From positions 1 through 49,382 of the forward strand of contig JANQFB010000301.1 of assembly GCA_028278085.1 (NCBI GenBank): a stretch of 49,382 nt of DNA, written 5' to 3'. The DNA comes from Chitinophagales bacterium (GTDB lineage: Bacteria > Bacteroidota > Bacteroidia > Chitinophagales > JANQFB01). The position numbers and the translations under genes were made by a program. Of the stretch, positions 21,164 through 44,852 are shown piece by piece. Below the pieces are notes generated by a model. The model saw nothing but the letters and a program-made list of their open reading frames with translations, was not told where the DNA came from and searched no databases. How positions within the stretch are numbered: the first letter of the stretch is position 1; each line of letters starts with the position of its first letter.

Positions 21164-22534
21164 ATGAAAGTCTTAAAACTTCCTTCAGTAAACGTCGAAT
21201 TCAGAAAGAGCAAAGCCAAAAAAAATGGTAAAGTACCAATTTATATTCGCTTAGCTTATGATGGCAAGAAAAAATACATCTCCTTAAATATGTATGTCCA
21301 TCCTTCTAATTGGAATAGCAAACAAGCTAGGGTGAGACCCGGAGCAGGCAATTCCATCCGGACGAATAACTTTATTGAACAACAAACGAAACGGATTAAC
21401 GAAATAATTTTGCATCAAAGCGAACAATTAGGAAACGGAATTCGAAGATTCAATTTGGATCAAATTGTTTCACTTTTCGAAAGTAATTCAGATCATATTG
21501 ATTTTATCAAGTTTGCCTACAAAACTATTGAACAGAATAAAAATAAAAGGACGAAGGGTACATATACAATTTGGATCGGCAAAGTACGTCTTTTAGAGCA
21601 ATTTGTAGATCATCAAAAAATCGCAATGGATGATATTACCGATTTTTTTTTAATAGACTTTTATGAATGGTGCAAAATTGAATTGGGGCATAAATACAAT
21701 ACCCTTAAAACAACACAAAATATTATCAAGGGGTTTATAAATATTGCATACAAGAAGGGATTAATTTACAAATTGCCTCTTGAGGGTATGCGCCATATTA
21801 AGCACAAAGAACCTTTGGTTAAGGATTATCTGACAGAAAAGGAAATTCATCAACTATTAAGTATTTACGAATCAAAAGAATTAAATGGGAGGCAGCAATT
21901 ATCACTTCAAGGATTTTTATTTAGTTGCTTTACTGGATTAAGATATTCGGATGTTGCAAGAGTTAATAGGACAAACTTTGTTTTTGGAGAATTGAGGATT
22001 AGAATGAAGAAAACGCAAATTGATCTGACTTTGCCTTTTAGTGATATGGAGTTGGCTCAACGAGTTTTACCCGTTCAACCAACTGAATTGCCTTATTTTT
22101 TCTGGCCCAAAAATAATCCGGATCATTCAGAAAGTGTTAATACCCATATGAGAACCATACTAAAAAAATATGGCATCGCACAAGATCGTAAAATAACCTT
22201 CAAGTCTGCCAGAGATTCATTTGCAATAGTATCATTAATAAAAGGTATCCCTTTAAAAGTAATCAGCAGTTTTTTAGGTCATACTTCCATCAAAACTACC
22301 GAAATATATGCCAAGGTCGTGATGGATTTAAAAAGCAAAGAAATTAGGAAATGGAGTCTGAGAAAAGAAACCGCATTGTCCTTATCTCAAAAGGAGATCG
22401 CGGCAATTATTGATGAATTGCAAGCCAGTGAATTACCACAAAACAGTCCGGTTATATCAGGATTGTTGGAAAAGCTACATGAGATCAGCGATAATAATGA
22501 ACCGGAAATACAGCCAATGAAAAAAGTATCCTAA
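21164..22534 (+). CDS. Tyrosine-type site-specific integrase
   Basis: Arm/SAM-like N-terminus; FTGLRYSDVARV (Arg box), ISSFLGHTSIKTTEIYAKVV (H..R/Tyr box). Confidence 0.95.
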   Translation: MKVLKLPSVNVEFRKSKAKKNGKVPIYIRLAYDGKKKYISLNMYVHPSNWNSKQARVRPGAGNSIRTNNFIEQQTKRINEIILHQSEQLGNGIRRFNLDQIVSLFESNSDHIDFIKFAYKTIEQNKNKRTKGTYTIWIGKVRLLEQFVDHQKIAMDDITDFFLIDFYEWCKIELGHKYNTLKTTQNIIKGFINIAYKKGLIYKLPLEGMRHIKHKEPLVKDYLTEKEIHQLLSIYESKELNGRQQLSLQGFLFSCFTGLRYSDVARVNRTNFVFGELRIRMKKTQIDLTLPFSDMELAQRVLPVQPTELPYFFWPKNNPDHSESVNTHMRTILKKYGIAQDRKITFKSARDSFAIVSLIKGIPLKVISSFLGHTSIKTTEIYAKVVMDLKSKEIRKWSLRKETALSLSQKEIAAIIDELQASELPQNSPVISGLLEKLHEISDNNEPEIQPMKKVS

Positions 22535-23990: not shown

Positions 23991-24263
23991 ATGTATGTAA
24001 AGAACCACATCAGCTATTTGACACCGGAAGAACTGTTATCCAAGTATCCTGTACTGGAGCGCACGAAGAAACTGACCGTTAAAGACCTCAAATTCTTGGT
24101 ATCGCTTGGCTTTTTAGAGGACGATCCGCAAAATAAAAAGCAGTTGCACATAAGGGAAAGTTCGGTTTTTACCCTTGCCAAAATAATGAACGAGGTATTT
24201 GAATCCAGGAAACTAAAAATTCCCATACTGACAGGCAATCACAGGCAGACACGAATTGTATAG
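23991..24263 (+). CDS. Small DNA-binding-like protein, similar to the ORF at 22969
   Basis: LTPEELLSKYPVLERTKKLTVKDLKFLVSLGFL. Confidence 0.4.
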   Translation: MYVKNHISYLTPEELLSKYPVLERTKKLTVKDLKFLVSLGFLEDDPQNKKQLHIRESSVFTLAKIMNEVFESRKLKIPILTGNHRQTRIV

Positions 24264-24294
24264 TACGACTGACTCAATCACCAAACAACAGCCA

Positions 24295-25512
24295 ATGCAG
24301 GTATTAGCCTTTACGGAAACCTTCGCCAAACTTGACCAGCTTATAGAGGACTACAACGAACAATTCAAATACTATGATGATGAAGGCAATCCCCATTTTG
24401 AGTATGGAAAGTGTATCCGGCCCAACCACCGGCATTTGATGATGGAGATTATCCGATGTTACGCAAAACAGCTATTCACATTCAAGATACTGGAACCCGA
24501 CCAGGAGCTACCCCCATTTCATGCCAATAGTGTCGGTTTAGGGAAGCGTACCGGATTTTCTGACCGAACCATCAGGCGACTGATAAAAAGGCTGTTAGAG
24601 GCCGGTATAATCGCTCACAAGGAATGGAGAGGAAGGAATACCAACTACCATTTGACCCTCAATAGGCAAGTGTTGATCATGCACAAAAAGTTTGAGGAAA
24701 TAGTAACCGACCCTATCTCACCGAAAAATGAAAAAACATGTAATGACGCTGTTTTGAGAGCCGTCATAAAGACAACTTGTCCGCAAATAGAAGCGGGGGA
24801 ATTAATCAATAAAGCTAAACTAAGCGGTGCAAAAGTTGAAAAAACTTTTGCGGCTAATGATAAGGCGGGAGACAAAGAGACAGGAGACGTTGGATTGCAA
24901 GTCTTAGCAGGAGATGGCATTAAAGCAGGCTTTAACGCCTCTCCTGCGGACTTCACCGAAGTTTTGGACTACGTGGAAAGGCTATTTGCTTTATTGCTTG
25001 GAACAGTCTTAAAACGCCTGCCATATTTGGCCGAAAGTGAAACTTTTGCGGCAAAAAAATTCTTTTGTGCCCAATTGCTGTTCGCACCGGCCAACAAACG
25101 AATGTCCATATACAAGGAACTAAAGATCCGGATCCTAATTGCTTCCAAATACCTGACAAACCATCCTGAATATAGGCCCCAAATACCATCATTGTATTTC
25201 AAGCCTGAAAATAGAAAAGGCTTTGCCCGGACAAAGGTTTGGTATGACCATATGGCAGAAAATAGCCCGAAAATCGAGAAGTACGAATCACGATGCAAAG
25301 ACTTTTGGACACGTTGGAACGCATTTATCAAAGCCACTTCGGGCTTCCTCAAGCACAAGAACCATATGGCATATTCGAAAAATAAAAACTGGCTTGTCAA
25401 AAAGTATCCTGAAATGGCAAGCGCCTACGATTATGTTACTCTGAAATTGGGAGTAACCGCGCCTAATCCCGATCAACTGGACGCCCTTCTAAACCAATCC
25501 TACGATGCCTAA
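24295..25512 (+). CDS. Replication-initiator-like winged-helix protein
   Basis: KRTGFSDRTIRRLIKRLLEAGIIAHKEWRGRNTNYHLTLN; position after HTH genes and a phased repeat array. Confidence 0.4.
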   Translation: MQVLAFTETFAKLDQLIEDYNEQFKYYDDEGNPHFEYGKCIRPNHRHLMMEIIRCYAKQLFTFKILEPDQELPPFHANSVGLGKRTGFSDRTIRRLIKRLLEAGIIAHKEWRGRNTNYHLTLNRQVLIMHKKFEEIVTDPISPKNEKTCNDAVLRAVIKTTCPQIEAGELINKAKLSGAKVEKTFAANDKAGDKETGDVGLQVLAGDGIKAGFNASPADFTEVLDYVERLFALLLGTVLKRLPYLAESETFAAKKFFCAQLLFAPANKRMSIYKELKIRILIASKYLTNHPEYRPQIPSLYFKPENRKGFARTKVWYDHMAENSPKIEKYESRCKDFWTRWNAFIKATSGFLKHKNHMAYSKNKNWLVKKYPEMASAYDYVTLKLGVTAPNPDQLDALLNQSYDA

Positions 25513-25824: not shown

Positions 25825-26376
25825 ATGAATAACGCCCTCAAAGTATTGCTGACATCCATTTTTTCGGGTTCGCTCCTGTTACTTGTTCGTAAAGGATTTG
25901 CCAGTGACCTGAAAGTAATCAACATTACTGAACAATTGGTAAGAAGTTCGGATAGGCAATACCTTACCCGTCCCATTGGGGAGATAACCGACGTTACCAT
26001 CCATCATAGTCGGAGCGAAGGACAGGATGCTTTTGATTATGCAAAATATCATGTCAATGTAAAGGGATGGCCAGGTGTTGCCTATCACTTTGACATCCAG
26101 CCCGACGGAACAATTTTCCAAACCAATTATCTAACCACGGTATCGTGGCACAACGGAACTGACAACGCGGGTGCAGTAGGTGTTTGTCTATCCGGCAATA
26201 TGGACAATAGGGTGCCTACCGATAAGCAATTAAAAAGCGCAATTCAACTGATAAAATGGCTGAAAAGAAAGCTACCTAACCGGATAGTGGTAAAAGGACA
26301 CAACGAATACAAATCAACAACTTGCCCCGGTAAGTATATGCCAATGAAATACATTAGATCACGAACAAACAGCTAA
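25825..26376 (+). CDS. N-acetylmuramoyl-L-alanine amidase (Amidase_2/PGRP-like)
   Basis: VTIHHSRSEG...GVAYHFDIQPDGTIFQTN...VVKGHNEYKSTTCPGKYMP. Confidence 0.85.
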   Translation: MNNALKVLLTSIFSGSLLLLVRKGFASDLKVINITEQLVRSSDRQYLTRPIGEITDVTIHHSRSEGQDAFDYAKYHVNVKGWPGVAYHFDIQPDGTIFQTNYLTTVSWHNGTDNAGAVGVCLSGNMDNRVPTDKQLKSAIQLIKWLKRKLPNRIVVKGHNEYKSTTCPGKYMPMKYIRSRTNS

Positions 26377-28013: not shown

Positions 28014-28283
28014 ATGGACAAAAATTCAATTCTCCTATTAGTCAATTCCGGCCTGCTGGCGTTTATTGGAATCCTATTCACATTTGTCGGTTTTTTCCTA
28101 CGAGATCTCCATAGGGATTTTAAAGACCTGATCGAGAAGGTAAACAATCTTGCTGCTGATCTTCATACGCACATCCAGGTATCGAAAAGCGAAGGCAAGG
28201 CTATTCATGACGAAATAGAGCAACTCAACGGGAGAGTATCTGAACTGGAAAGGGCTGTATTCAAAAATGGAGGCACACAATGA
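28014..28283 (+). CDS. Small protein with N-terminal TM and coiled coil
   Basis: LLVNSGLLAFIGILFTFVGFFL then heptad-rich segment. Confidence 0.55.
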   Translation: MDKNSILLLVNSGLLAFIGILFTFVGFFLRDLHRDFKDLIEKVNNLAADLHTHIQVSKSEGKAIHDEIEQLNGRVSELERAVFKNGGTQ

Positions 28284-28789
28284 GTATGTGGCCCAAAATA
28301 GCTTTTGGAGCGGGCATACTCATCCTTATAGGAAGCGTTGCAAAGGCGGCCAACTCCACCAAAAAAGTAGTCATCACTCCAAAGGCCAACCTGCACTCCA
28401 TTGGATTGACCAATATCAAAATCAGGGTAGATCTAAACCTTAGAAACCCTACTGATACGGATGTAAAGATCAAACATCCCTTTATCAAACTTACTTACAA
28501 CGACAAAGATTTGGGTTCATCCAAACCGGAAAATAAAAACCTATCTATCCCCAAGTTGGGGGAACTGGACACCGATCCCATATTTATCGAGATACCCATT
28601 TTCCAATTGATCGGAGCATTAGGAGATGTGATAAAGCTCGTAACCGGCAAAATGGAGGAGATCATGATCAAGATACAAGTTACCTCATTCATTATCACAG
28701 GTATTAAGAACCTTCCTATTGATGAGACCAAATCCATACCCCTACGCAAGAAATCCATCCAAAGTATTCAAGCCCTTAGAACCGCATAA
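28280..28789 (+). CDS. Membrane-anchored LEA_2/WHy-like beta protein
   Basis: N-terminal TM; IGLTNIKIRVDLNLRNPTDTDVKIKHPFIKLTYNDKDLGSS. Confidence 0.5.
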   Translation: MSMWPKIAFGAGILILIGSVAKAANSTKKVVITPKANLHSIGLTNIKIRVDLNLRNPTDTDVKIKHPFIKLTYNDKDLGSSKPENKNLSIPKLGELDTDPIFIEIPIFQLIGALGDVIKLVTGKMEEIMIKIQVTSFIITGIKNLPIDETKSIPLRKKSIQSIQALRTA

Positions 28790-30700
28790 ATGCAGGCAAC
28801 CAAACCACGACATATAAAACCTGGCACACAGTATGACAAACTGATACCAAAACCGATTGGTAACGACATTGTCATCCTGAAAAAAGCCAATGTTGCCGAT
28901 ACGCTTTTATTGATTCCTCATATCGTACAAGACACCCTAACAGATACTAAAAGGTTGGCCCCGGTTCTCAAAGGTGCAAGCATTTGGGGCACCTGTTCAA
29001 ATATCTGGCACTTTATCTACGGTCATATCCAGTATAAAAAGGACGAACCCGGTATCGAGCAGGTACGCAGACCGGCACGTTCCTGGCATTTGGATCGCCG
29101 AACAGGAGTTGATTGCGACTGCTATACCGTTTTTATCAGTAGCATCCTGACTAATCTTAATATACCCCACACTTACCGTGTAACAGCCTACGATGGTAAT
29201 GATCATTATCAGCACATCTATCCAATAGTACCACTATCCAGTGGCGGATATATCACGATAGATCCCGTGGTAAATCAATTTAATTACGAAGAACCTTTTT
29301 CAAAAAAAATGGACAAAAAAATGGAATTGCACTATCTCAATGGTATCGGGGAAGATGAAGAATTGGAATTGACCCCTGAAGAACTAACCGGATCAACCGA
29401 TTTTTTCAATGCCCAAATTGATGCACCTGGAAACGACCATAATCCAACAGAAATGATGGATACGGACGAATTGGAAGGTTATGGCATAGATGAATTGGGC
29501 TTTCTCAAAAAGTTCCGGGATAAGGCCAGGGAACAATTGGAGAAATCAAAGACCGGCCAATTTATCAATAAGGTAACCGGTAAGGTGACAAACTTAGGCA
29601 GTAAGGTTGTCCACACGATTAATAAAGGCTATCCCCATACCGTCTTACTTCGCAACGGCATGTTGATCGGCATGAAAATCAATATGTTCAACATTGCCGG
29701 GAGACTAAGGTATGCGTATTTATCAGATGCTCAAGCCAAGGTAAAAGGCCTGGACCTTGCCGTATTCCGCAAGTACCAAAAGATCCTGGCAAAAATGGAA
29801 AAAACCTTTTGGACAGCAGGCGGAAAACCGGAGAATCTCAAGCTGGCCATCCTGACCGGAAAGGGTAACAAAGATGGCGCAATACCGCTTAATGGTTTGG
29901 GTAGTATTACCGTTCCTCAAAATGTTACCGCGCATTCAAGAATTATTGACGTATTAGGCCCGGATATCTTTTATTCCGAGAATGAACAAGTTTCAGTCCA
30001 GGGATTTGCCGGGATCTCAACTGTCAATGAACTTGGTTCAGTTGAAACAGCAGCAGCCATAACAGCAGCTACCACCGTTTTAGCTGCCATAGCCGCCCTT
30101 TTAAAGTCCGCAGGGGATATCAGGTTCCAAAGCAACAGATTAACACGCCCAAAGGATCCTTTGCCGAATGAACGTACGGCGACAAAAGGTTCCACAAATG
30201 TGGAAGACGCTATCGAAAAAGTAAATCCAATATTGGAGAAGTTAAACATCGATCCTAACAAGGTTAAACAAACAATTCCAACCGTGCAGACATTGGTTGA
30301 CCTTTTTCCTAAAGGAAAGGTTACCAAGACTCCTTCAGCGGAAAATTCTGTACCGGTAGTTACCGGTGAAGGAAGCACCGTATTTCTTCCACCGGCAGAA
30401 GCCAACCAAATTACTGAAATGATGAATATCGGAAGTGAAGGGGATGAACCGGAGAAAACTGAATTTGCCCCCCTTGTTTGGATAAAGGCTAATCCCGTCA
30501 AGACCGCTGCCATTGTTGGTGTTCCGATTTTAAGTTTTATCGGATGGAATGTATATAAGAACATGCAAAAGAAAAAGAACGCGGGTAAAACACCAGCTCA
30601 ATCTTCCTTGTCCGGAGCTAACTCCAAAAAGAAGCACAAAACGCGAAAAACCAATACCCGGAAAAAGAAGCCATTGGGCCAATTGGAGTATATCGCATAA
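28790..30700 (+). CDS. Transglutaminase-fold protein with C-terminal TM segment and basic tail (putative virion protein)
   Basis: RTGVDCDCYTVFISSIL...HYQHIYPIV...YITIDPVVNQF catalytic-type triad; hydrophobic KTAAIVGVPILSFIGWNVY. Confidence 0.65.
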   Translation: MQATKPRHIKPGTQYDKLIPKPIGNDIVILKKANVADTLLLIPHIVQDTLTDTKRLAPVLKGASIWGTCSNIWHFIYGHIQYKKDEPGIEQVRRPARSWHLDRRTGVDCDCYTVFISSILTNLNIPHTYRVTAYDGNDHYQHIYPIVPLSSGGYITIDPVVNQFNYEEPFSKKMDKKMELHYLNGIGEDEELELTPEELTGSTDFFNAQIDAPGNDHNPTEMMDTDELEGYGIDELGFLKKFRDKAREQLEKSKTGQFINKVTGKVTNLGSKVVHTINKGYPHTVLLRNGMLIGMKINMFNIAGRLRYAYLSDAQAKVKGLDLAVFRKYQKILAKMEKTFWTAGGKPENLKLAILTGKGNKDGAIPLNGLGSITVPQNVTAHSRIIDVLGPDIFYSENEQVSVQGFAGISTVNELGSVETAAAITAATTVLAAIAALLKSAGDIRFQSNRLTRPKDPLPNERTATKGSTNVEDAIEKVNPILEKLNIDPNKVKQTIPTVQTLVDLFPKGKVTKTPSAENSVPVVTGEGSTVFLPPAEANQITEMMNIGSEGDEPEKTEFAPLVWIKANPVKTAAIVGVPILSFIGWNVYKNMQKKKNAGKTPAQSSLSGANSKKKHKTRKTNTRKKKPLGQLEYIA

Positions 30701-30741: not shown

Positions 30742-31335
30742 ATGCAAGCAAAAAAAACCAAAAACCCCCGCAAGACCAGTAAATACATTCCCTCCTTTAC
30801 CAAAGCCAACTGGACCAGGGCAGGTAAAGAATCCTTATCCAATATCGGATTTACTGTTGTTGGAGGCGGTTTACTGGCCACACTGATAGGGAGACCTTCG
30901 GCATTACTTGGTGCAGGGGTAACCCTTTATGGTTCCCTGATCAAGAATAAACAAATATCATCTGTTGGCGCAGGTATGATGGCAGTAGGATTGGTGCAAA
31001 AACCAATTCCTGCAAATGAAATATTCTCCAAAGACAAAGCTATTGAGCGGGTAAGGAACTTAAAGGACCATGCCATCGCCAACTTGTATTTGGATAAGGT
31101 TGTACCAGGTGCAAAGCCCGCCGAGGAACTCAGTGGGATTTTCCTTCAGCAGACTAACCCCGATGAACCACTGGATTTTTCTGCGTTGGAGCAATTGCAA
31201 GCAGAATTGGCTGAAAATGCTGAGAAAGTGCAAATGCACCTACCGGGAACAAGCGATATAAACGGAACAGAAGTAGGAGCGTTGCCCGATGCCGAAATTT
31301 TGAACATCGATCCGGATGATGATCCAGACTTCTGA
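30742..31335 (+). CDS. Membrane protein, putative virion component
   Basis: Gly-rich hydrophobic segments NIGFTVVGGGLLATLIGRPSALLGAGVTLYG. Confidence 0.45.
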   Translation: MQAKKTKNPRKTSKYIPSFTKANWTRAGKESLSNIGFTVVGGGLLATLIGRPSALLGAGVTLYGSLIKNKQISSVGAGMMAVGLVQKPIPANEIFSKDKAIERVRNLKDHAIANLYLDKVVPGAKPAEELSGIFLQQTNPDEPLDFSALEQLQAELAENAEKVQMHLPGTSDINGTEVGALPDAEILNIDPDDDPDF

Positions 31336-31394: not shown

Positions 31395-32126
31395 ATGACA
31401 ATCGAAGATTTAGATTTTATCGAACAAACCGAGTTTGACAATCCCGGTGAATTATTAGGGATTGATGGTGCGGACATGAATGCCGAGTTGTTAGGCATTT
31501 TAAACGGACTGGATGCTGTAAAGCGTCAAAGAGTACTCAATTCCCTGAAAAAGCGCAAACGGCCAAGCCGCAAATCAAGGGGCGAAATGGAAAAGTTTTT
31601 CCGGCTATTACCTAAACATATCCGCCAACAACTTCGCAAAGGCCAGCTACGGTTAGCGGACTATGTAATTTATTCCATTAAACCGGCCACTCAAAAAACC
31701 ATCAAGTTCTTTGAACCACAGGATGACAAAAATATCGGACTTCGCAATATTTCCAATGCGAAACTGCCCAAAAACCATGCGTTCATGTGCAGTGGTATTA
31801 TCATGCTCGCCGGTGCCGGTGCGGATAGCACCGAAGATGTGGTCAAATCCAACGAGTACAAAGAGATCGAAGCCGAAAATGCTATTGCCAACGGGGAATT
31901 TTCCTTAAAGGCAAATAAGGTGCAGATCGTTCCGGATACTTCCAACCGGGTGTTTTGTTCAAAGCAAAATACCTTCAACAACCTGGGTTATTACAAACTG
32001 GACAATCCCCGGTTGATAAAGGATGAGGAACCCATTGAGTTTACCGTCGAATTAGGTACGCTGACCGGGATAACCGCTCATACCCATATCTGGACTGGAT
32101 TGGTCGGAACGATCACCACACCATAG
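31395..32126 (+). CDS. Beta-rich protein, candidate major capsid protein
   Basis: Helical N-terminus then ~170-aa beta-strand-rich domain; followed by a strong hairpin; no recognised family. Confidence 0.4.
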   Translation: MTIEDLDFIEQTEFDNPGELLGIDGADMNAELLGILNGLDAVKRQRVLNSLKKRKRPSRKSRGEMEKFFRLLPKHIRQQLRKGQLRLADYVIYSIKPATQKTIKFFEPQDDKNIGLRNISNAKLPKNHAFMCSGIIMLAGAGADSTEDVVKSNEYKEIEAENAIANGEFSLKANKVQIVPDTSNRVFCSKQNTFNNLGYYKLDNPRLIKDEEPIEFTVELGTLTGITAHTHIWTGLVGTITTP

Positions 32127-32152
32127 CCATAATTCTGCCTGTTCGTGTAACC

Positions 32153-32208
32153 ATCAAAGTGCACTGAAGTGTATCCGCCTGGCGGATTCTACTTCGGTGT
32201 GCTTTGAT
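32153..32208 (+). terminator. Long RNA hairpin (18-bp stem with G-U pairs, inner perfect atccgcc-t-ggcggat)
   Basis: atcaaagtgcactgaagt ... acttcggtgtgctttgat with a nested perfect 7-bp stem; no T tract. Confidence 0.7.
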
Positions 32209-32240
32209 AAACTTTCAAAAAATATAAAAATCATTTAGCC

Positions 32241-32630
32241 ATGCCTGATAAAAACCTAACCCGCTTTTTCACCATAAATATTACAGCAGCCGGTATAACG
32301 GTTACAGGTGAATATGAGATTGACGATGACGTGACTAAAGTAAAGGGATTTTGGTTGAGTTCTGACCGTGAAGATTTGCTTTTTTACCGGGGGACTTTGT
32401 ATTTAAAGTTTAACGGCGCAGAATGGGTAGAAGCAGGTACACAGGCAAAGAATTTCATGAATAGCTCCAACGTGGATTATTGGTTAAGGATGTGGCCCTT
32501 TGGAGATGGGACAGCCGATCCCGGTGACCAGGAGATGGCAGTAGACTATACGGATAACGATCACCCAAACACCGTCTTTGAACCATATTCTGTCCATGTA
32601 TTTGTCGAATTTGATATTACTCCTCCATAA
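32241..32630 (+). CDS. Small beta-sandwich-like protein, paralog of 32649 (putative capsid/vertex protein)
   Basis: KVKGFWLSSDREDLLFYRG...DYTDNDHPNTVFEPYSVHVFVEFD. Confidence 0.45.
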   Translation: MPDKNLTRFFTINITAAGITVTGEYEIDDDVTKVKGFWLSSDREDLLFYRGTLYLKFNGAEWVEAGTQAKNFMNSSNVDYWLRMWPFGDGTADPGDQEMAVDYTDNDHPNTVFEPYSVHVFVEFDITPP

Positions 32631-32648
32631 TCACAAAACAACCAAACA

Positions 32649-33044
32649 ATGGGATCAAATAAAATAGTACAGCGCAGGTACGATGTGCAAGTAACAACCG
32701 CAGGACAACAAGTGCAGAACTCCATAACTCTGGATGTTGATGTCGAGAAGATCAAAGGCGTTATGCTGACTTCCGACAGAGAGGACTTGATGTATTTACG
32801 TGGGTCCTTCAAACTGCAAGCCGATGGAAGTGAATGTTTCCCTGATGGGACTCCGGCGAGGGTTATAATGTTCGGTTTAGGTATTGGTCCGGGCAACCGC
32901 TATGAACCGTTGGGCAATGGTTCATTTGACCCTGGTAACATGAATGTGACACTGGACTACAATGACACCAATCACCCACAAGCTGTATTCGAGCCTTATA
33001 CGGTGAGTTTATATATCCATGTGAATTTGGGGGAATTTGCCTAA
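32649..33044 (+). CDS. Small beta-sandwich-like protein, paralog of 32241
   Basis: KIKGVMLTSDREDLMYLRG...DYNDTNHPQAVFEPYTVSLYIHVN. Confidence 0.45.
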   Translation: MGSNKIVQRRYDVQVTTAGQQVQNSITLDVDVEKIKGVMLTSDREDLMYLRGSFKLQADGSECFPDGTPARVIMFGLGIGPGNRYEPLGNGSFDPGNMNVTLDYNDTNHPQAVFEPYTVSLYIHVNLGEFA

Positions 33045-33050
33045 CAGGAG

Positions 33051-33194
33051 ATGAAGCAGAACGAACCAAAACAATTTATTAAGGTAATCACTATTCCTAT
33101 TGTTGCGACAGGCCAGCGAAAGGTTACCCAAATTATCCTTCCACCGACTACCAGGAGGATCATCGGTATTAAAGCAACTGTCAAATTCTTATAG
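33051..33194 (+). CDS. 47-aa protein resembling the N-terminal strands of the 32241/32649 pair (not in ORF track)
   Basis: MKQNEPKQFIKVITIPIVATGQRKVTQIILPPTTRRIIGIKATVKFL. Confidence 0.3.
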   Translation: MKQNEPKQFIKVITIPIVATGQRKVTQIILPPTTRRIIGIKATVKFL

Positions 33195-33202
33195 CTGAGT
33201 GT

Positions 33203-33706
33203 ATGCCAAAGAAAGTAACCATACCCCAAGCATTTCAACCCCAGGTATCACCGATTACCCAAAAATCAGTCATTGACTTGATAGCTTCAATTTACGGATG
33301 TGGGTTAGAGAATCAAAAAGCAACACTATTAAATCAGCAAACCATCCCATTTGTTAACCAAATTATTCAAGCCCCTACCCCTGTAAACACACAACTCCAA
33401 GCCCTTTCATCTCCATTAGTTTTCAACCCTGAAAAAATTGGGGAAATTACTATTTCAGACCTGGATAAAATCATCTATCAGTCCAATGTCATGGATACTG
33501 ATGCGATCCCAATGACATGGGAAGATATGTTCGGTATACCCCGTCATACATTCGGAGCCGGAGAACCCTGGATAACAGGAGGCAAGTTATCAGAACCTTA
33601 TCCTTTAAATATCGAGGATGAGCATGTATTAAATGTCTATTATCTGGATATGCTTCCCACACCTTTCAGGGCGTATGAATTGATCATTGAAGTCTATTAC
33701 GAATAA
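33203..33706 (+). CDS. Hypothetical protein, putative virion component
   Basis: ORF in tight colinear cluster. Confidence 0.4.
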   Translation: MPKKVTIPQAFQPQVSPITQKSVIDLIASIYGCGLENQKATLLNQQTIPFVNQIIQAPTPVNTQLQALSSPLVFNPEKIGEITISDLDKIIYQSNVMDTDAIPMTWEDMFGIPRHTFGAGEPWITGGKLSEPYPLNIEDEHVLNVYYLDMLPTPFRAYELIIEVYYE

Positions 33707-34050
33707 TGGCTACGGCAAGCTCATATAATACCTTCCCATTGATCCCCCGCTTAATGAAAGAAAGGGGATATGCTGAAAATGAATATAAGACTAAGGAAAG
33801 GTACATGGTTCTAAAGCCTAACGCAACACGAACCATCAATGTGCATAATGAGATTTGGTTTATCCATAATGTACCCGATAACATCACTATCAAGTCCCTT
33901 ACCGGATACTTTGACACAGAGGATCAAAACGTCGATGAATTATGTACCGAGTTCAACAGGACATTCGACATTATCAATAAGGCCGGGGCGATCCAACATG
34001 TCATTTTTATTCAAATCATACCCACCAGGAAACGCAATAAAAAAGGTTAA
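33706..34050 (+). CDS. Hypothetical beta-rich protein, putative virion component
   Basis: YMVLKPNATRTINVHNEIWFIHNVPDNITIKSLTGYF; ATG overlaps upstream stop region. Confidence 0.4.
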   Translation: MATASSYNTFPLIPRLMKERGYAENEYKTKERYMVLKPNATRTINVHNEIWFIHNVPDNITIKSLTGYFDTEDQNVDELCTEFNRTFDIINKAGAIQHVIFIQIIPTRKRNKKG

Positions 34051-34055
34051 CGGAC

Positions 34056-34889
34056 ATGGCAGTTCACAAACAAAAGCATGATAACCGGAAGATAAACAGG
34101 ATTAAGGCTTCCATCCAAAATTCTGCTCAGCAGGGTAACCCTCAATATTTTGAGATATGGGTAGATAACATCAAAGTAGTACCCAGAACCCATGACATAA
34201 ACCGTTTTGATTCTTACTCCGAGTATGTCGACGGTGCAACAACAAGCATGGAGATCAAATTGTATCATGGTGATAGCATGAACAATGATAAGCACATTTT
34301 CACATGGGGCGACTCTCTAGCCGATGAAGGTGAATTAAACGGAGCAACGATCAACTCCCAAATTGATGAAAAGTTGAAGGAAGCTAAAAGGCAGTGGGAT
34401 TTTGAACAGCTACAAAAAGACCATGATGAACTAAAGGAAGAATTGGACAAAGCCGATGGCTACATCGAAGAGTTGGAAAAGAAAATACGCGAACTGGAGA
34501 ATGGGCCAAAGGTCAGCACGATTGGAGAATTAGGTTCAGTCATTGCCGAGAGTATGATCCGGAGAAATCCCCAATGGTTAGCCAAGTTGCCCTATGGAGC
34601 AGGAGAAACTTTGGCCGGTATCATCATCGAGGATAACAAGCGGCTGGAACAAGAGGCTGGCCAGGAGCAACAAACAGAAACCGATGCCAGTTTTTCAGAA
34701 CAAACTGAATTCAGCGGTATTGACCCCAAAGACAAACCCTATGTTGACTTTTTAAGGCAGTTAGAGCAGCGTTTCGACCAACAACAGATCGTCAAGGTTA
34801 TGACGATCATAGACCAGTTGGCTAACCACCATGACCAAATTGATATGGTATTCAATTTACTTAACAATAAAACACAGACAGATGCCTAA
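34056..34889 (+). CDS. Beta head plus long coiled-coil protein
   Basis: YFEIWVDNIKVVPRTHDI N-terminus; KDHDELKEELDKADGYIEELEKKIRELEN. Confidence 0.45.
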   Translation: MAVHKQKHDNRKINRIKASIQNSAQQGNPQYFEIWVDNIKVVPRTHDINRFDSYSEYVDGATTSMEIKLYHGDSMNNDKHIFTWGDSLADEGELNGATINSQIDEKLKEAKRQWDFEQLQKDHDELKEELDKADGYIEELEKKIRELENGPKVSTIGELGSVIAESMIRRNPQWLAKLPYGAGETLAGIIIEDNKRLEQEAGQEQQTETDASFSEQTEFSGIDPKDKPYVDFLRQLEQRFDQQQIVKVMTIIDQLANHHDQIDMVFNLLNNKTQTDA

Positions 34890-35067
34890 GTTCACTTACA
34901 AATTTTCGATTGAAGCGCCGGACAAAGATACCGCACAACGCAAAATGTCCGCACTGGCAACACTAGCCAAAAAACTGTCCCTGAAGGAGCTGGAAACTAC
35001 CGCTGATGTATTGGCAAACAAACCGGTCAAGGCAAAGGTGGCTAGAAAGATGTTAAGCACCCTCTAA
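34882..35067 (+). CDS. 61-aa helical protein
   Basis: MPKFTYKFSIEAPDKDTAQRKMSALATLAKKLSLKELETTADVL; internal ATG of the 34831 ORF overlapping upstream stop. Confidence 0.5.
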   Translation: MPKFTYKFSIEAPDKDTAQRKMSALATLAKKLSLKELETTADVLANKPVKAKVARKMLSTL

Positions 35068-35068
35068 G

Positions 35069-35755
35069 ATGATTTTGGAAAAAGCACAAAAGAGGTTGAT
35101 TACCCTGACCGACAAAGAACGGACGATAGCAAAGTATGTCGCATTCGGATTTGCAGGTGTAACGCTTCTAGGTGTTTCCTACCTGACAACGAGGTATTTC
35201 ATTAACAAGGCCAAAGCTGACGCAGCAGAAAAACTAACATTCGAGGAAGGTACCCCCGGATTCTATGCCAAACAACTGGAAATGGCATTTCTCAATGATG
35301 GTTTGCCAGGTACAAATGTTCCATTAGTTCGCAGGGCAATTAGTAAGATCCCCACAAAGGATTTCTGGAAGCAGGTACAAAAGCAATATAAATCCCTTTT
35401 CCGCAAAGTCCTAATTAAACGATTGAGTGAAGAGCTGACCACAACGGAGTATAGCGAAATGGTTTTTATTATCCAGGGCAAGCCTGACAGTATTACAGAT
35501 CCTAAACAATTCAGCCCTTTACTGATCGCCAAACGGTTGAATGCTGCATTTAATTATACAGTATTGGGATTCCCGGCAACTGATGAGGACGGGATAAGAT
35601 CAGCCCTAATCGATGTTCCTTCCAAAGTTGCATGGGAGCAAGTTAAAGATGCCTACCTGACTGAGTTTCAAATACCCCTAATGACAGACCTACGGGATGA
35701 ATTGGAGTTTTGGGAGATTGACGATTACCTGGACATTATCAAAAATAAATCCTAG
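35069..35755 (+). CDS. TM-anchored protein with two annexin-like helical repeats
   Basis: N-terminal TM; two ~70-aa repeats, second LNAAFNYTVLGFPATDEDGIRSALIDVPSKVAWEQVKDAYLTEFQIPLMTDLRDEL. Confidence 0.5.
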   Translation: MILEKAQKRLITLTDKERTIAKYVAFGFAGVTLLGVSYLTTRYFINKAKADAAEKLTFEEGTPGFYAKQLEMAFLNDGLPGTNVPLVRRAISKIPTKDFWKQVQKQYKSLFRKVLIKRLSEELTTTEYSEMVFIIQGKPDSITDPKQFSPLLIAKRLNAAFNYTVLGFPATDEDGIRSALIDVPSKVAWEQVKDAYLTEFQIPLMTDLRDELEFWEIDDYLDIIKNKS

Positions 35756-35760
35756 TACTA

Positions 35761-36701
35761 TGGATATTACACTGACAAAATCATCGAATAAGAAAACCAC
35801 CTTTACCCCTAACAACCTATTTTGGACGCTATTGATTGGGAGTGTCGTGGTGGGTTCAGCAGGTTTAGTAACCTATCTTGTTCTAAAACCCAAGAAAGAT
35901 TCCGGAGTGGATTTTGATCCACCTGGAGGCGATAGTGGTTCTTCATCCGACCCCAACCCACCAAACCTGCCAAAAGGCGATAGCTTTCCCCTAAAAAGAG
36001 GAAGTAAGGGTCCAAGAGTTCAGCGATTGCAATTAGCCCTTATTGCTAAATATGGTCCTTCGATTTTACCCCGTTTCGGAGCGGATTCTGATTTCGGAAA
36101 TGAGACCCAAACAGCTTTACAAATCAAGGGGTTACCAACAGTCATAACGGAAAGTTTCTTCAACAGCTTTGTCAGTAAAAACAGCGGTAGTGATTCAGGT
36201 TCAGGAAGTACTTCCACAGAAAGCCATAAAGCCGCTGGCCGGTTAGCCATTGAACTGTATTATCATGCCCTGAAAAAAAACCATGCTGGGATAATTCAGG
36301 GATTGAAGCGCATTAAAACACCAACGGACTATGTAGCTGTAAGCAACGTGTTTAGGACGAATTACCTAAGAGGTGTAAGGCAAACACTGGTGACTGGATT
36401 GTTGGGAACCTTTCCAAGCGAAGCCCTTAAAGAACCTATCCGAAAAGAGTTTTTGAGAATGGGTTTGATCTATGATGGCAGTAAATGGAGCTTGCCCCCT
36501 CTTAGTGGTTTGTTCGGTTCAGGGCGTACCCTGACCACCTTGCGTATGTCAGAAATTCATGACGGCAGGGGTAACAGTCTCTTTGTGCCGGCAGGAACAA
36601 CTTTAGGAACACCGATCAAAACCTATGCAGGTTACACCCTTTTTAGGACGATTGACAATCATAATTTGATCGTATTATCTAACGATGTAATTGAGCAATA
36701 A
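35761..36701 (+). CDS. TM-anchored peptidoglycan-binding-domain protein with helical annexin-like segment
   Basis: TM near N-terminus; LKRGSKGPRVQRLQLALIAKYGPSILPRFGADSDFGNETQTALQ (PG_binding_1). Confidence 0.6.
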
Positions 36702-37755: not shown

Positions 37756-38523
37756 GTGGCTAAGAAAAAGGCACATGAACTTAATAAGGAAATCGAAGTA
37801 TTCATGGATACCAAAGTCGGGGGTAGTGATTTTTACACCCGCGATGAAATTGAGTTTGTGAAGCAATATTCAGGCAGTGGTGGATTGGTAAGCGCAGGAG
37901 CAACAGGCAGGGGAATATTACATGAATATTATACAGACCAACAGATTGCAAAAGACATGTGGGATATAGCATCAGCGTACGGATTTATTGGCGGAAATGT
38001 GCTGGAGCCGAGTGCAGGCGTTGGCCGCTTAATAAAGGATGCCCCGGACTATCTCAAAGTGTGGGGGTTTGAGATCAACAAGTATGCAGCCAGGATAGCT
38101 GAATTGGCTCATTTGGGAGCAACAGTTTACCCCAGGCATTTTGAAACTGCTTTTATGGCAGAACCCCGGTACAGGACAAGGATAAAAGGTGATAAGCTGA
38201 CAAGTTTGGAAGGATACCCGTTTAGCCTGATAATCTCCAATCCTCCCTTCGGTGTACACAAGAATTTTTTTAGTGGCTTTTTCAAACGTCCAAAATTCAA
38301 ATGGATAGAACACTTTTTTATGTACTACGGCATGAAGCTACTGAAACCAGGAGGATTATTAGTGTATTTAACCAACAGCAATTTCATGCGAAATGGTAAT
38401 ACCCATGACCAAGCTAAAAAGGACTTGGAAGGGATCACCGAGTTCGTGGATGCCGTTAGGATCGGTTCAGTATTCAATACTACCGATGCCCCGGTAGATA
38501 TTTTAGTATGGCGCAGAATATAA
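37756..38523 (+). CDS. N6-adenine-type DNA methyltransferase (GTG start)
   Basis: NVLEPSAGVGRLIKD motif I; LIISNPPFGVHKNFF motif IV. Confidence 0.85.
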   Translation: MAKKKAHELNKEIEVFMDTKVGGSDFYTRDEIEFVKQYSGSGGLVSAGATGRGILHEYYTDQQIAKDMWDIASAYGFIGGNVLEPSAGVGRLIKDAPDYLKVWGFEINKYAARIAELAHLGATVYPRHFETAFMAEPRYRTRIKGDKLTSLEGYPFSLIISNPPFGVHKNFFSGFFKRPKFKWIEHFFMYYGMKLLKPGGLLVYLTNSNFMRNGNTHDQAKKDLEGITEFVDAVRIGSVFNTTDAPVDILVWRRI

Positions 38524-39475: not shown

Positions 39476-39485
39476 ATACCCGGTT

Positions 39486-42400
39486 ATGAAAGCTATTGCA
39501 AATTACGCATCACTTAATGGTCTGGGCAGCCTTGGAAATACCGCATTAGCTCCGATTATTTCTTCCAATACTGAACTGGCAAGAAAAGCCTTAGATCGTT
39601 CAAAGAGCCAGGAGAAATCAAAGGAAAAGATATTGGACTTTGAGGACGTGCAAGGACAATATAATCAGGGAATAAGCGAAGATGAAACGATAGCATGGGT
39701 TTGGTATAAAAGATCAATCGGTATTCCAATGACCGGATGGCAGAAGTTCTTTATCAAAGGAACCCAAGGCATAGAAGGGGAAATGCTTGTTACAACCCAG
39801 GAAACTACCCTTTTAGATGCCGCACGCTTGCCCTATCACACCGTTCCTGAAGGTAAGGTTTTAGGCAAGCCGCTTGATAAAGATACAGATGCCGGTGAAA
39901 ATGGTGTTTATCGCGTTTTTAGGGACAGTGAAGGGTTAAAAATGGTTTTGAAAAATCATTCAAAGACCATAAAAACAGGTATTAAAACCAATCCCAAAGA
40001 ACTGGACAGATTGGTAAATGCCGGTGCTTTGTTCTATTTGAATGGTGAACTATTACCATTGCCTTTGTATGCGTTTGGAAATATGTACGACAGGGAATTG
40101 CAATTAAGCCAGGACAAAGAACATATCGAGGCCAAATACGGGATCGATGCATACCTGCGCCACGAACAGGTTATTAAGCACTACAAACCCAAATTGTTAA
40201 GTATTACTAATCCCGACCCAACACAACGTCCAAACATACTTGCCATATCTCAATTTGCTAAAGACTTCCATGTGGAAGATTTAGCGGCCGATACCGGTAT
40301 TACGCTTTCTGACAAATTACCACTGGTCAAAGCCTTTCAATTTTGGATGGCAAGTTTAGATCAAAGCAGTTTTAATGAATCATCAGCTAACCGGATTTGG
40401 AATCATTATATTGAAGCAAGGCGAGTAACTGATAAGGAACTTTCTAAGGAGCAAAAGAGGGAAGTAAAAACAGCCGCAAGGAATGAAGGTGAAAGGCTGT
40501 TTGCCCAATTTCTGCATGAAGGATTACAATTTGAAGATCAACAGAAGTTAGATTTTACCTGGAACAGGATCTTCAATGGACAATCCAGTGTGCCATACAA
40601 CAAGATACCCGTTGGATTTGAAGCCTCTGCTAACTTTAAGCAATTCGCACTGGAGCTGAGGCCACCCCAACGGGAAGCAATAGCATTTATGGAATTAACT
40701 GGCAGTGGTTGTATTGCCTATGATGTAGGAGTTGGTAAAACGATGGCCGCTATTGTTACCTTGGCCAATGCAATATTTTCAGGCAAGGCAAAAAGGCCAT
40801 TGGTTGTTGTACCCAATCCCGCCTATAAAAAATGGTTGGACGAGATCTTTGGATATGAGGACAACGAGAAACATTTTGTTCCCGGAGTGTTATCCCATAC
40901 CGGGATAAAAGTGAATGATTGGTTCAATTTAGGAAAGGGGATTAGGGACAAAATCAACTTCGATAAAGCAGTTCCCCCAAAGTCTATTACAGTAGTCACG
41001 TTCGAAGGATTTAAGAAGATCGGGTTTTCCGAGAAAATCATGGATGAAATGTTCCTGGAACTGGCTAACATAATAGGCCAATCCAAGGAAGGTATTTCAG
41101 AACGGGACCAGGAAATAGAATACGCAAGATATGAGGAAATTGTTGGGGTAGGTATTAAAGACACTATTGCCGACATAGATACTTTAGGTATTGATTATGT
41201 TGTGATCGATGAGGCCCACAATTTCAAAAATGTATTCCATACCGTAAAAAAGGATAAGGAAGGCAACAAACGATTTGGTATTGAAGGGCAAGCCAGTGAG
41301 AGTGGAATAAAGGCTTTTTTTCTCACCAATTACATACAAAGGAAGTTTGGCCGTAATGTCATGCTGCTTACCGCTACGCCGTTTACCAACAGCGCATTGG
41401 AAATATATTCTATCCTTTCCCTAATTGCTTATCAGGCCATGAAGCAAATGGGGCTAACAAGTATTACCCGCTTCTTTGAAACTTTTGTTCAGGAGACCAC
41501 AGAGTATGTGGTAAACATCAAAGAGCAACTGGTAGCTAAAGACGTTATCAAGCGGTTCAACAATCGGCTGGTCCTCCAAAAGCTGATCTATAATCATATC
41601 AATTACAAAACAGGTGAGGAATCAGGCGTAAAGCGCCCCTGCCTATTGAAACTGCCAAAGGTAAATGTAAAAGAGAATGGGACATTAAAACGGTTAAGAC
41701 CGGAGGATCAGGTATTGACCTATTTGCGAATGACCGAAACGCAAAGGCAGAATCAATTGAACATTGTTGCTATGGCTAAAGAAGCTACGGCCACAAGAAA
41801 GACAAATACAGCCATGTTGTTTCAGGCATTGAATTTGTCCCTGGATAATGCTCTTAGTCCTTTTATATATGAAGGAACGTTCCCGGAAACATATAAGGAG
41901 TTTATTGAGCAAAGCCCCAAATTGTTATATGCTGTTAGCTGCATTGCATCTCATAAGAAATACCATGAAGATCGGGGAGAGCCGATAAGCGGTGCCTTGA
42001 TCTACATGAACCGGGGTAAGGCATACTTTGAGTATATCCAGGATTGGTTATTTATTGAAACTGGCTTTAAAAGAGAGGTGAAATGGGGACGTTCCAGAGT
42101 GAGCGAAGTGGAGATCATTTCATCCGGAATAAGCCAGGGTAAAAAAGAAGTAATCAAACAGGCCTTTTTAGCAGGAGTGGTAAAAGTGATCATTGGAACG
42201 GCTACGGTTCGGGAAGGAATTGATTTGCAAACCAATGGCACACTAATTCTGAATTGTTATCCCGATTGGAATCCTACGAACATTCAGCAATTGGATGGAA
42301 GAATGTACCGTCCGGGAAATCGTTTTGGTTGGGTTCGATCAGTGATGCCTTTAGTACAGGATAGCATGGACGTGTTTGTATTTCAAAAGCTGGAAGAAAA

Positions 42401-43319
42401 AACTGCCAGAATCAATGATATATGGTATAAGGCAGATCGAGGTAATGTACTGGACCTGGAAGCACTGGATCCTGAAGAAGTTAAGTTTGCGCTGATAACA
42501 GATGTAGAGGCAATTGTTGATTTGAAGATAAAAGGCATTAAGGCTGAAATGCAGCGCAAGTATGATCGTCTTAAAGCAGAAAAGGAGGTAATGACCACCT
42601 TTAAGAATGATCTTTCAAATTACAATTCGTGGCGTTCCGATGCCCTGTCATTGATCGAGAAATGGAAAAATACGATTGCAGAGCGCCCACATATCAAAAA
42701 CCCCCCAAATGCCAAGCAGCGCAAGGCAATGGAAGCTGATGAGGTCAGGGTTATTGATCTGAACCAAAGTGTATTTGAAGATATACTTCGATTTCTTGAA
42801 TCAGTCCCACAAGTGGACACTGAAATTTTACGGGTATTGCGGAGAATCAGGGGTTCAGAACCCACATTTACAGGGTTTAATGTAATTGCCAATTTCAAAG
42901 AATATTTAGGGAAGATCCGAAAAGCTGAAAAGACAGTTCTTGCTAAAAGGGGCTTTGATCTGGATACGGATATCGAAGAACCATTAAGCCAAATTGAAGC
43001 AGACATTAGTTTACTGAAAGCCGAAGCTGAAAAGGTTATGTCTGATACGTTCCGCAGGGAGATCAAGGCAGAAGTAGACATCAAGAAATCCGCCATGAAT
43101 GTAGATGGCAAAACAATCGGCGAAAGAGTTGCTGAATTTGCATCAACGAACTACCTGCTTTCTTTCAAATTTGAAGACATAGACCCCTTTGCTTGCGAGG
43201 TACCCAATCCTGCCAATGAAAGGGAACCGGACACTATATTTTCCAATATGGGCTTGTTAAAAATCAAGGCCAAAGCATTAACACTGAAATTAAAACTGGA
43301 ACAATTTAATCTAAACTAA
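39486..43319 (+). CDS. SNF2/DEAH-type superfamily 2 helicase
   Basis: IAYDVGVGKTMAAIVTL, DYVVIDEAHNFKN, LLTATPFTN, IIGTATVREGIDLQTNGTLILNCYPDWNPTNIQQLDGRMYRPGN. Confidence 0.92.
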   Translation: MKAIANYASLNGLGSLGNTALAPIISSNTELARKALDRSKSQEKSKEKILDFEDVQGQYNQGISEDETIAWVWYKRSIGIPMTGWQKFFIKGTQGIEGEMLVTTQETTLLDAARLPYHTVPEGKVLGKPLDKDTDAGENGVYRVFRDSEGLKMVLKNHSKTIKTGIKTNPKELDRLVNAGALFYLNGELLPLPLYAFGNMYDRELQLSQDKEHIEAKYGIDAYLRHEQVIKHYKPKLLSITNPDPTQRPNILAISQFAKDFHVEDLAADTGITLSDKLPLVKAFQFWMASLDQSSFNESSANRIWNHYIEARRVTDKELSKEQKREVKTAARNEGERLFAQFLHEGLQFEDQQKLDFTWNRIFNGQSSVPYNKIPVGFEASANFKQFALELRPPQREAIAFMELTGSGCIAYDVGVGKTMAAIVTLANAIFSGKAKRPLVVVPNPAYKKWLDEIFGYEDNEKHFVPGVLSHTGIKVNDWFNLGKGIRDKINFDKAVPPKSITVVTFEGFKKIGFSEKIMDEMFLELANIIGQSKEGISERDQEIEYARYEEIVGVGIKDTIADIDTLGIDYVVIDEAHNFKNVFHTVKKDKEGNKRFGIEGQASESGIKAFFLTNYIQRKFGRNVMLLTATPFTNSALEIYSILSLIAYQAMKQMGLTSITRFFETFVQETTEYVVNIKEQLVAKDVIKRFNNRLVLQKLIYNHINYKTGEESGVKRPCLLKLPKVNVKENGTLKRLRPEDQVLTYLRMTETQRQNQLNIVAMAKEATATRKTNTAMLFQALNLSLDNALSPFIYEGTFPETYKEFIEQSPKLLYAVSCIASHKKYHEDRGEPISGALIYMNRGKAYFEYIQDWLFIETGFKREVKWGRSRVSEVEIISSGISQGKKEVIKQAFLAGVVKVIIGTATVREGIDLQTNGTLILNCYPDWNPTNIQQLDGRMYRPGNRFGWVRSVMPLVQDSMDVFVFQKLEEKTARINDIWYKADRGNVLDLEALDPEEVKFALITDVEAIVDLKIKGIKAEMQRKYDRLKAEKEVMTTFKNDLSNYNSWRSDALSLIEKWKNTIAERPHIKNPPNAKQRKAMEADEVRVIDLNQSVFEDILRFLESVPQVDTEILRVLRRIRGSEPTFTGFNVIANFKEYLGKIRKAEKTVLAKRGFDLDTDIEEPLSQIEADISLLKAEAEKVMSDTFRREIKAEVDIKKSAMNVDGKTIGERVAEFASTNYLLSFKFEDIDPFACEVPNPANEREPDTIFSNMGLLKIKAKALTLKLKLEQFNLN

Positions 43320-43331: not shown

Positions 43332-44852
43332 ATGGCTGCGATCTACAATCCTGAAAACTACTTTACCAAACTGACCGAGGAAGATATTAAGGTTTTACCT
43401 GCTTCATTGAAAGAAGGCCATGAATTTGTCGTACTGGCTACTAACGACGGTGCAAACTGGACAGCTTACCGAACCGAAGCCGAAATAAAAGAGACCATCG
43501 ATCTATACTTTAGCAAGCTGTCCGAATGGAAAACAGAAAGGAACAGGACTAAGAGGGCTAAAAATGTTGAGCAATCAATTGAAAAAGAAGGCAAAAATCA
43601 GGGCAGTAATAAAAGTAAACCGCAACCCCCTCCCAAAAAGCAAGTAGAAAGCCATTCCTTAGAATACAAGTTTATTCAACGATATGTAAGACTGCATGAT
43701 AAGGTGAAAACCGCCAATTCGATCCGTCTGTTTATCCGGGCCATGCAACTGGCCATAACCGAAAAGCAAATTACAAAAGCCTCTCCATTAAAGGATGAAA
43801 TCAATTATATCCAAAAGCAACTTGTGGAGATCTACGAAAGCATGAAGGACGAACAGAAAATAGTCATACCTGCAGATGATCTAAACAAGTTCCTGGGCTT
43901 GATCGGTAAAGAAGAACAAATGCTGTCTGTTCGCTTGATAAAAAGCTATATCAACCTGCAAGGTAAGACCATCGAGAAGGTGAAAGCCAAGAATCTGTAT
44001 AACCGGATCGTTGCTGCTATTAATAAAAAGAGACTGACCGAGAAAGACAAATACTATTCAAAGATTGAAACGATAATGAAATCCCTAAAAGAATTGGCAA
44101 CTGGCAAAAAGGAATCCGGGGTATTGAAAATCAGTAAAGCCGAATTAAATGGGCTGAATGGGGTATTGGACGGATGTGGTTGTAGTGATGGGTTAGCAGG
44201 TACTCCCTCAAACAGTCTAAATGGTTTCACACCCATCGGAAAAATAGGCCAAAACGGAAATACCAGTACTTTCCGCTTACCCGGAGACTTGGGCGAGCTG
44301 TTCGGTGATCTTGAACGGTACAGGCTTGCCATAACCGTTGAAGGGGACCAGGGAGCCGGTAAGACACGGTTCACCTACCAAGTGGCTGATGGCTTCGCGG
44401 ATCTTGGATTCAATATAGGCATTTACAGCCTTGAAATTGGTGGGCGATCAGATCTTATCGAGCGAATGAGAGATGAGTATATCAGTCCAAAAAACATTGA
44501 TAATATATTAATATCTGGCGAAGCTGAAAACGGTATCCAGACTATCCGCAAAAATGCCAACAACTTCGATGTGATTATCATAGATAGTTGGAACAAACTG
44601 GATGCTCATTCCAAAGAGTTTGACAGCTTACGCAAGCAATTCCCCAATACCATTTGGATAGTCATCTTCCAACGGATAGGAAGCGGGGATATTCGGGGAG
44701 GAATTCAACCCCTTTATGATGCCGGTATCAACATTGAGGTTGTCAAAGCCAAAGGTGGCGACGAATTTAATTACGCCCATGCCACAAAGAATCGTTATGC
44801 CATGACCGGCATAAAGTACCTGGTATTTCAGCAGGAACTTTTGGAAGAATAA
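43332..44852 (+). CDS. RecA-like P-loop ATPase
   Basis: Walker A EGDQGAGKTRF, Walker B FDVIIIDSWNKLD, switch-like NTIWIVIFQ. Confidence 0.75.
   Translation: MAAIYNPENYFTKLTEEDIKVLPASLKEGHEFVVLATNDGANWTAYRTEAEIKETIDLYFSKLSEWKTERNRTKRAKNVEQSIEKEGKNQGSNKSKPQPPPKKQVESHSLEYKFIQRYVRLHDKVKTANSIRLFIRAMQLAITEKQITKASPLKDEINYIQKQLVEIYESMKDEQKIVIPADDLNKFLGLIGKEEQMLSVRLIKSYINLQGKTIEKVKAKNLYNRIVAAINKKRLTEKDKYYSKIETIMKSLKELATGKKESGVLKISKAELNGLNGVLDGCGCSDGLAGTPSNSLNGFTPIGKIGQNGNTSTFRLPGDLGELFGDLERYRLAITVEGDQGAGKTRFTYQVADGFADLGFNIGIYSLEIGGRSDLIERMRDEYISPKNIDNILISGEAENGIQTIRKNANNFDVIIIDSWNKLDAHSKEFDSLRKQFPNTIWIVIFQRIGSGDIRGGIQPLYDAGINIEVVKAKGGDEFNYAHATKNRYAMTGIKYLVFQQELLEE

Follow-up and report, generated by a model that had tools for sequence, protein, structure and literature searches.

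A candidate capsid module with a predicted single-jelly-roll protein in a probable SSIP-1-related provirus of a Chitinophagales genome

Introduction

The genome of Salisaeta icosahedral phage 1 (SSIP-1) is said to have hardly any similarity to GenBank entries. This phage is tailless, has T=49 and contains a membrane, and reviews group it with the single-barrel viruses that have two major capsid proteins (MCPs), P23-77 and the sphaerolipoviruses (PMC6356626, PMC6260650, PMC4958249). The latter are tailless, membrane-containing, single-jelly-roll viruses of which proviruses are known, and the Halopanivirales (realm Singelaviria) are defined by two MCPs together with an FtsK/HerA ATPase (PMC8328091). 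In Sulfolobus polyhedral virus 1 (SPV1, Portogloboviridae), a single vertical jelly-roll protein, VP4, forms the hexamers and another jelly-roll protein, VP10, the pentons of a particle with an internal membrane (PMC8459092). SPV1 is without a packaging ATPase, and one proposal likens the Portogloboviridae to the stage that preceded duplication of the MCP (PMC8812541). FLiP and PhiCjT23, with hosts in the Bacteroidota, also contain an internal membrane; their MCP is a double jelly roll and their genome an ssDNA of about 9 kb.

We analysed a stretch of 49,382 nucleotides from a Chitinophagales bacterium (contig JANQFB010000301.1), called here the window. A preliminary description had proposed that positions 31395-34050 hold a capsid module in which two paralogous beta-sandwich proteins recall the two-protein, single-jelly-roll capsids of the P23-77 type.

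Gene content of the element

The putative provirus extends over about 21.2-46.7 kb of the window. At its left end, in the region of the tyrosine recombinase gene at 21164, the G+C content falls from ~0.5 to 0.32-0.36, and its right end was placed near 46.7 kb from gene content. No convincing att repeats were detected in the window and no tRNA integration target was found. The genes assigned are the following.

21164..22534, + strand, tyrosine recombinase at the left end of the element (Pfam Phage_integrase E 1.6e-16; G+C drop)
24256..25512, + strand, winged-helix protein, possibly for replication initiation (family in 53 loci; sub-threshold HTH and RP-C matches)
25825..26376, + strand, N-acetylmuramoyl-L-alanine amidase (Amidase_2 E 2e-19; N-terminal hydrophobic segment)
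28280..28789, + strand, LEA_2-like membrane protein in the module (family in 82 loci; LEA_2 match below cut-off at E 0.0014)
28790..30700, + strand, transglutaminase-like protein, homologue of SSIP-1 gp34 (profile E 9.5e-17, hhalign 97%)
30742..31335, + strand, small protein encoded upstream of the candidate MCP, with a hydrophobic segment (family in 84 loci)
31395..32126, + strand, candidate MCP, single jelly roll with a helical N-terminal arm (AlphaFold2 model, Foldseek, highest conservation)
32241..32630, + strand, small beta protein, extra copy by duplication (37% identical to 32649; one copy in nearly all other loci)
32649..33044, + strand, small, conserved beta-sandwich protein, candidate for a penton or minor capsid protein (AlphaFold2 pLDDT 90.5; family in 91 loci)
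33051..33194, + strand, third, longer paralogue, N-terminal fragment (profile positions 8-44, 23.9 bits)
33203..33706, + strand, third paralogue, C-terminal part (profile positions 66-142, 17.6 bits)
33706..34050, + strand, conserved small module protein, probably beta-rich to judge by its sequence (family in 86 loci)
34056..34889, + strand, coiled-coil module protein (family in 82 loci; coiled-coil-type Pfam matches below cut-off)
34831..35067, + strand, small conserved module protein (family in 78 loci)
35069..35755, + strand, conserved module protein, probably membrane-anchored, with no segment above the hydrophobicity cut-off (family in 80 loci)
35697..36701, + strand, membrane-anchored, peptidoglycan-binding-like protein (family in 69 loci; hydrophobic segment 40-58; likeness read from the residues, no Pfam match)
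37756..38523, + strand, Eco57I-type DNA methylase (Pfam E 1.1e-7)
39486..43319, + strand, SNF2-type helicase (Pfam E 1.9e-11)
43332..44852, + strand, RadA-like ATPase, homologue of SSIP-1 gp40 (profile E 4.2e-16)
45456..46151, + strand, second amidase near the right end (Amidase_2 E 2e-8)
46196..46660, - strand, short paralogue of the module transglutaminase, close to the right end (49.9 bits with the profile of that family)

The transglutaminase-like protein has a conserved DCDC motif and conserved H142 and D158. Hydrophobic segments were found in the module proteins 28280, 28790, 30742 and 35697. Among the ORFs of the element scanned with Pfam no FtsK/HerA packaging ATPase was present; besides the helicase, the only ATPase was the RadA-like one. 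The methylase and SNF2 helicase genes (37756-43319) adjoin this ATPase gene, and the helicase resembles the defence helicases DrmD and BrxH (PADLOC). At the corresponding place of two related loci, G047 and G331, there are strawberry-notch-type helicases, the one in G047 being fused to a RadC-like domain.

A candidate major capsid protein

The AlphaFold2 model of the 31395 protein, built with 36 homologues (pLDDT 84.7, pTM 0.79), showed helices up to residue 82 followed by eight strands between residues 86 and 242, which bears out the helical N-terminus and beta-rich C-terminus proposed earlier. The 243 residues hold one set of eight strands in this model and two tandem jelly rolls are absent; judged by the model, the element is not a double-jelly-roll virus (Bamfordvirae, FLiP).

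In a Foldseek search of the PDB the top match was SPV1 chain A (E 2e-4, probability 1.0, TM 0.36/0.47), followed, among the best 50 matches listed, mainly by viral jelly-roll capsid proteins of iridovirus, PBCV-1 and EhV; the FLiP penton was a weak match, and no MCP of P23-77 or the sphaerolipoviruses was among these 50. Against BFVD, the highest query TM-score among the matches listed (0.42) was that of I1ZBH9 (211 aa), and I1ZBI0 (256 aa) was listed as well. By length and gene adjacency, we infer that these two entries are SSIP-1 gp46 and gp47, respectively. All these fold matches have modest TM-scores (0.3-0.5) and a large rmsd. Searches of the capsid genes with Pfam and PHROGs gave no significant match, and a PDB sequence search with the 31395 and 32649 families found no relative.

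The 31395 protein is the best-conserved protein of the module, with 56-63% identity among close relatives compared with 28-43% for the 32649 family, and a mean column identity of 66% compared with 52%. From its predicted fold and its conservation, 31395 is likely the MCP.

The small beta-sandwich paralogues

The four ORFs named in the preliminary description were recovered at their positions, all on the + strand: 31395-32126 (243 aa), 32241-32630 (129 aa), 32649-33044 (131 aa) and 33051-33194 (47 aa). The proposed paralogy of the second and third holds (37% identity, BLASTP E 5e-30), and the two motifs quoted for them are present in both proteins and represent the signature of a family whose invariant residues, in an alignment of 45 relatives, are R51, G52, E62, G96, D106, F114 and Y117. 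The AlphaFold2 model of 32649 (45 homologues; pLDDT 90.5, pTM 0.82) is mostly beta. Its best Foldseek matches are jelly rolls of mixed viral and cellular origin, furin P-domains and GOLD domains among them, and SPV1 chains were also matched. Thus, the check by AlphaFold and Foldseek that had been suggested gave beta-rich models with jelly-roll matches for both 31395 and 32649; as the matches of the latter are both viral and cellular, its fold is supported and its capsid role remains that of a candidate.

The 47-aa ORF at 33051, earlier compared with the N-terminal part of the paralogues, belongs to a genuine gene: it is the beginning of a third paralogue that is longer than the other two. The profile of the longer paralogue matched 33051 at positions 8-44 (23.9 bits) and the following ORF, 33203, at positions 66-142 (17.6 bits). 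The equivalent place in a sister copy on another contig of the same genome (C195) is occupied by a short ORF of 52 aa, so the split in the window is no sequencing error. This division into two ORFs, apparently present in the sister as well, is unusual; the relatives have a single ORF, and the gene that follows the 32649 homologue in them codes for a family mostly of 110-200 aa with wide length variation. By hhalign, the families of the longer paralogue and of 32649 are homologous (96%, E 3.7e-9).

Two copies of the 32649 subtype were found only in the window, and possibly in G251, among 91 loci; the usual relative has one 32649-type gene and one longer paralogue. The extra copy, 32241, is a local duplication in the window. 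Since nearly all relatives have this one-plus-one arrangement, 32241 and 32649 probably do not form a two-capsid-protein system, and the conserved partner of 32649 is the longer paralogue, not 32241 as the P23-77-like pair would have it.

The two-MCP idea can be moved to the conserved partners, with the 32649-type and the longer 33051/33203-type proteins as MCPs, as VP16/VP17 in P23-77, and 31395 as a penton, scaffold-like or membrane-linking protein. The homology of the two families, their adjacency in relatives, as expected for a duplicated MCP pair, and the beta-sandwich model of 32649 with its jelly-roll matches agree with such an arrangement. We nevertheless consider it unlikely, because within the module 31395 clearly shows the highest conservation and is the one with MCP-like fold matches, and because the gene of the longer paralogue, divided into two ORFs in the window and its sister, varies widely in length.

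An additional ORF lies between the MCP and the 32649 homologue in 18 of 85 loci (L042, L087, L100, L118 and others) and is absent from the window. The extra ORF in about 15 loci codes for a membrane-anchored protein of ~177-189 aa that looks like a lytic enzyme.

Relation to SSIP-1

When 50,697 phage records were searched with the transglutaminase-like protein 28790, SSIP-1 gp34 alone was matched (one phage, two accessions). The family profile of 28790 matched gp34 with E 9.5e-17 (hhalign 97%), and that of 43332 matched gp40 with E 4.2e-16 (hhalign 98%). Both gp34 and gp40 are annotated as structural virion proteins in the SSIP-1 record. These matches fall in widespread superfamilies, and controls were scored with the same profiles. 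The transglutaminase profile gave 37.9 bits for gp34 compared with at most 15.6 in the PDB; the strong matches in the genome studied here were confined to its two elements. For the ATPase profile, gp40, itself RadA-like (E 4e-7), scored 49.0 bits compared with 27.5 for RadA of the PDB and 18.9 for the highest-scoring other protein encoded in this genome; single RecA chains reached at most 22.3 bits, and the higher sums for fused RecA repeats in three PDB entries (59.6-83.3 bits) arise because three to five repeat copies are added up.

The likeness to SSIP-1 further includes the match of the 31395 model to BFVD entries that fit gp46/gp47 by length, the many small hydrophobic proteins, and a host within the wider Bacteroidota-Rhodothermota group. 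In contrast, the candidate capsid proteins differ in sequence: 31395, 32649 and the longer paralogue have no significant sequence similarity to SSIP-1 proteins. Where one 31395-type protein is present here, SSIP-1 encodes two paralogues, gp45/gp46 (25.7%, E 1e-12). The gene order also differs, and the SSIP-1 annotation names no integrase. Two further candidate links were set aside: an alignment of 31395 with gp45 (48 columns, 25% identity) was not significant and was not used, and the similarity to the giant methylase protein gp43 was too weak for a shared gene. Viral contigs held no relatives of gp46 or gp34 other than SSIP-1 itself.

Distribution and mobility

Searches of viral and genome contigs with single sequences were unsuccessful, and an alignment query worked. 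With the alignment search, the 31395 protein was found encoded at about 200 loci of a species-level genome collection. All 80 loci listed of these about 200 belong to Bacteroidota, the carriers being Chitinophagaceae, Cytophagales, Flavobacteriales and others. Among genomes of the order, 9 of 399 have homologues, as do 3 of 396 in a phylum sample. Ohtaekwangia koreensis DSM 25262, Puia dinghuensis and Persicobacter psychrovividus NBRC 101262 are examples of carriers in culture. The gene order from the LEA-like to the peptidoglycan-binding-like gene was identical in 92 of the 92 loci tested.

Several genomes carry two or more copies of the module. In the genome studied here, a second 31395 copy, about 63-64% identical, is located in a module on the 7.5-kb contig C195 (L021), and a second RadA-like ATPase copy on contig C317 (L133); the two contigs are probably one second element broken by assembly. 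A short stand-alone transglutaminase-like paralogue on the opposite strand is present in both elements of the genome (window 46196-46660, L021:1985-2431).

Tyrosine integrases related to that of the window lie near the module in G353 and G354, and large serine recombinases directly follow the ATPase in G047 and G331 (Pfam-confirmed), with related genes in four further loci. One module thus occurs with different integrase classes, large serine or tyrosine recombinases (L026, L029, window 21164-22534, G353). For some chromosomal copies no recombinase was found within the stretch read. In Persicobacter psychrovividus, the plasmid pPP10, circular and 53 kb long, carries a divergent module (L129/L130) together with rep, ParA and ParB genes, which makes pPP10 a candidate phage-plasmid; in this module one ORF encodes the LEA-like and the transglutaminase-like protein as a fusion. 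The 1.07-Mb plasmid pPP1 has a partly similar copy (L131/L132; 93-97% identity over parts). The idea that pPP10 is the excised form of the pPP1 copy was rejected, since only parts are common, at 93-97% identity.

No recognisable homologue of the 31395 protein was present among the 50,697 phage records, and two IMG/VR contigs matched the module. Such scarcity in virus collections, set against its frequency in chromosomes, is what one would expect of a domesticated particle-forming system kept by the host for gene transfer or delivery and no longer an active virus; several copies per genome, the variable type and position of the integrase, the plasmid form and the replication-type and lysis-type genes make this improbable.

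We found no description of these elements in the literature searched, many subscription papers lying outside its reach. The family is large and apparently undescribed, and its nearest known relative is apparently the orphan halophilic phage SSIP-1.

Discussion

The capsid idea of the preliminary description was probably right, and its assignment within the module was partly wrong. The beta-sandwich capsid module and the tailless, single-jelly-roll virus type are supported by the models, the fold matches and the SSIP-1 context, whereas 32241 and 32649 were not supported as the two MCPs. Nor is the ATPase that of the P23-77 group, a RadA-like protein being found in place of an FtsK/HerA packaging ATPase. 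What is shared with P23-77 and the sphaerolipoviruses is the idea of a single-jelly-roll capsid; they have two MCPs and FtsK/HerA, and the window has one MCP-like protein, 31395, two families of paralogous small beta proteins and the RadA-like ATPase. For want of an FtsK/HerA ATPase, the element is not to be filed in the Halopanivirales, and it may work like them. The one-MCP arrangement recalls the Portogloboviridae, and SPV1 is the best PDB fold match of 31395; however, SPV1 has an archaeal host and the TM-scores are 0.36-0.47, and no sequence relation was found, with no SPV1 record among the phage tblastn matches and no PDB sequence match. With FLiP and PhiCjT23 no similarity in gene content was seen.

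We regard this region as the likely capsid and virion module of an integrated, tailless, probably membrane-containing dsDNA virus related to SSIP-1, known here through its genes, with 31395 as the MCP. Homology, synteny, predicted folds and the link to SSIP-1 virion proteins support this reading, and it is from these that we infer the capsomer and penton roles, the internal membrane, the role of the ATPase and virion formation. The contrary view, that the beta proteins are cell-surface or carbohydrate-binding accessories of a mobile element, finds jelly rolls in cellular proteins too, as in the furin P-domains and GOLD domains matched by 32649, but is very improbable: in 92 loci these genes are invariably linked to homologues of two virion proteins of SSIP-1, and the fold matches of 31395 lean towards viral proteins.

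In the SSIP-1-related virus that we favour, the capsid faces would be made up of capsomers in which the single jelly roll of 31395 is upright, and its helical N-terminal arm would hold together neighbouring subunits or the membrane. Minor jelly-roll proteins of this capsid would be the 32649 family and the longer paralogue (33051 and 33203); they would most likely serve as pentons or at the vertices, or may decorate the shell, and the duplication of the 32649 type in the window might give mixed vertices or an altered receptor contact. The hydrophobic proteins 28280, 28790, 30742 and 35697 would reside in the internal membrane, where the anchored transglutaminase-like protein 28790 may be a virion component like its homologue gp34 in SSIP-1. 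The RadA-like ATPase 43332 would serve genome packaging or processing, acting on DNA in or near the particle; the amidases would open the cell wall and aid exit or entry, and the tyrosine integrase would insert the genome.

More tentatively, the elements may make up an undescribed, large bacterial family of proviruses and phage-plasmids whose capsid is built from one single-jelly-roll MCP and which uses a RadA-like instead of an FtsK/HerA ATPase. Such a family could be a counterpart of the presumed state before the two MCPs of the Singelaviria, linking SPV1, SSIP-1 and P23-77; we hold this wider proposal to be possible and with less confidence than the reading of the window itself.

Current virus finders seem to miss the group largely, as two IMG/VR contigs stand against about 200 loci in bacterial genomes. 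SSIP-1 gains hundreds of integrated relatives across the Bacteroidota, several of them in cultured type strains, and through these relatives capsid assembly, packaging and lysogeny of an SSIP-1-type virus become testable. If one jelly-roll MCP suffices here, this bears on the relation of two-MCP to single-MCP jelly-roll capsids.
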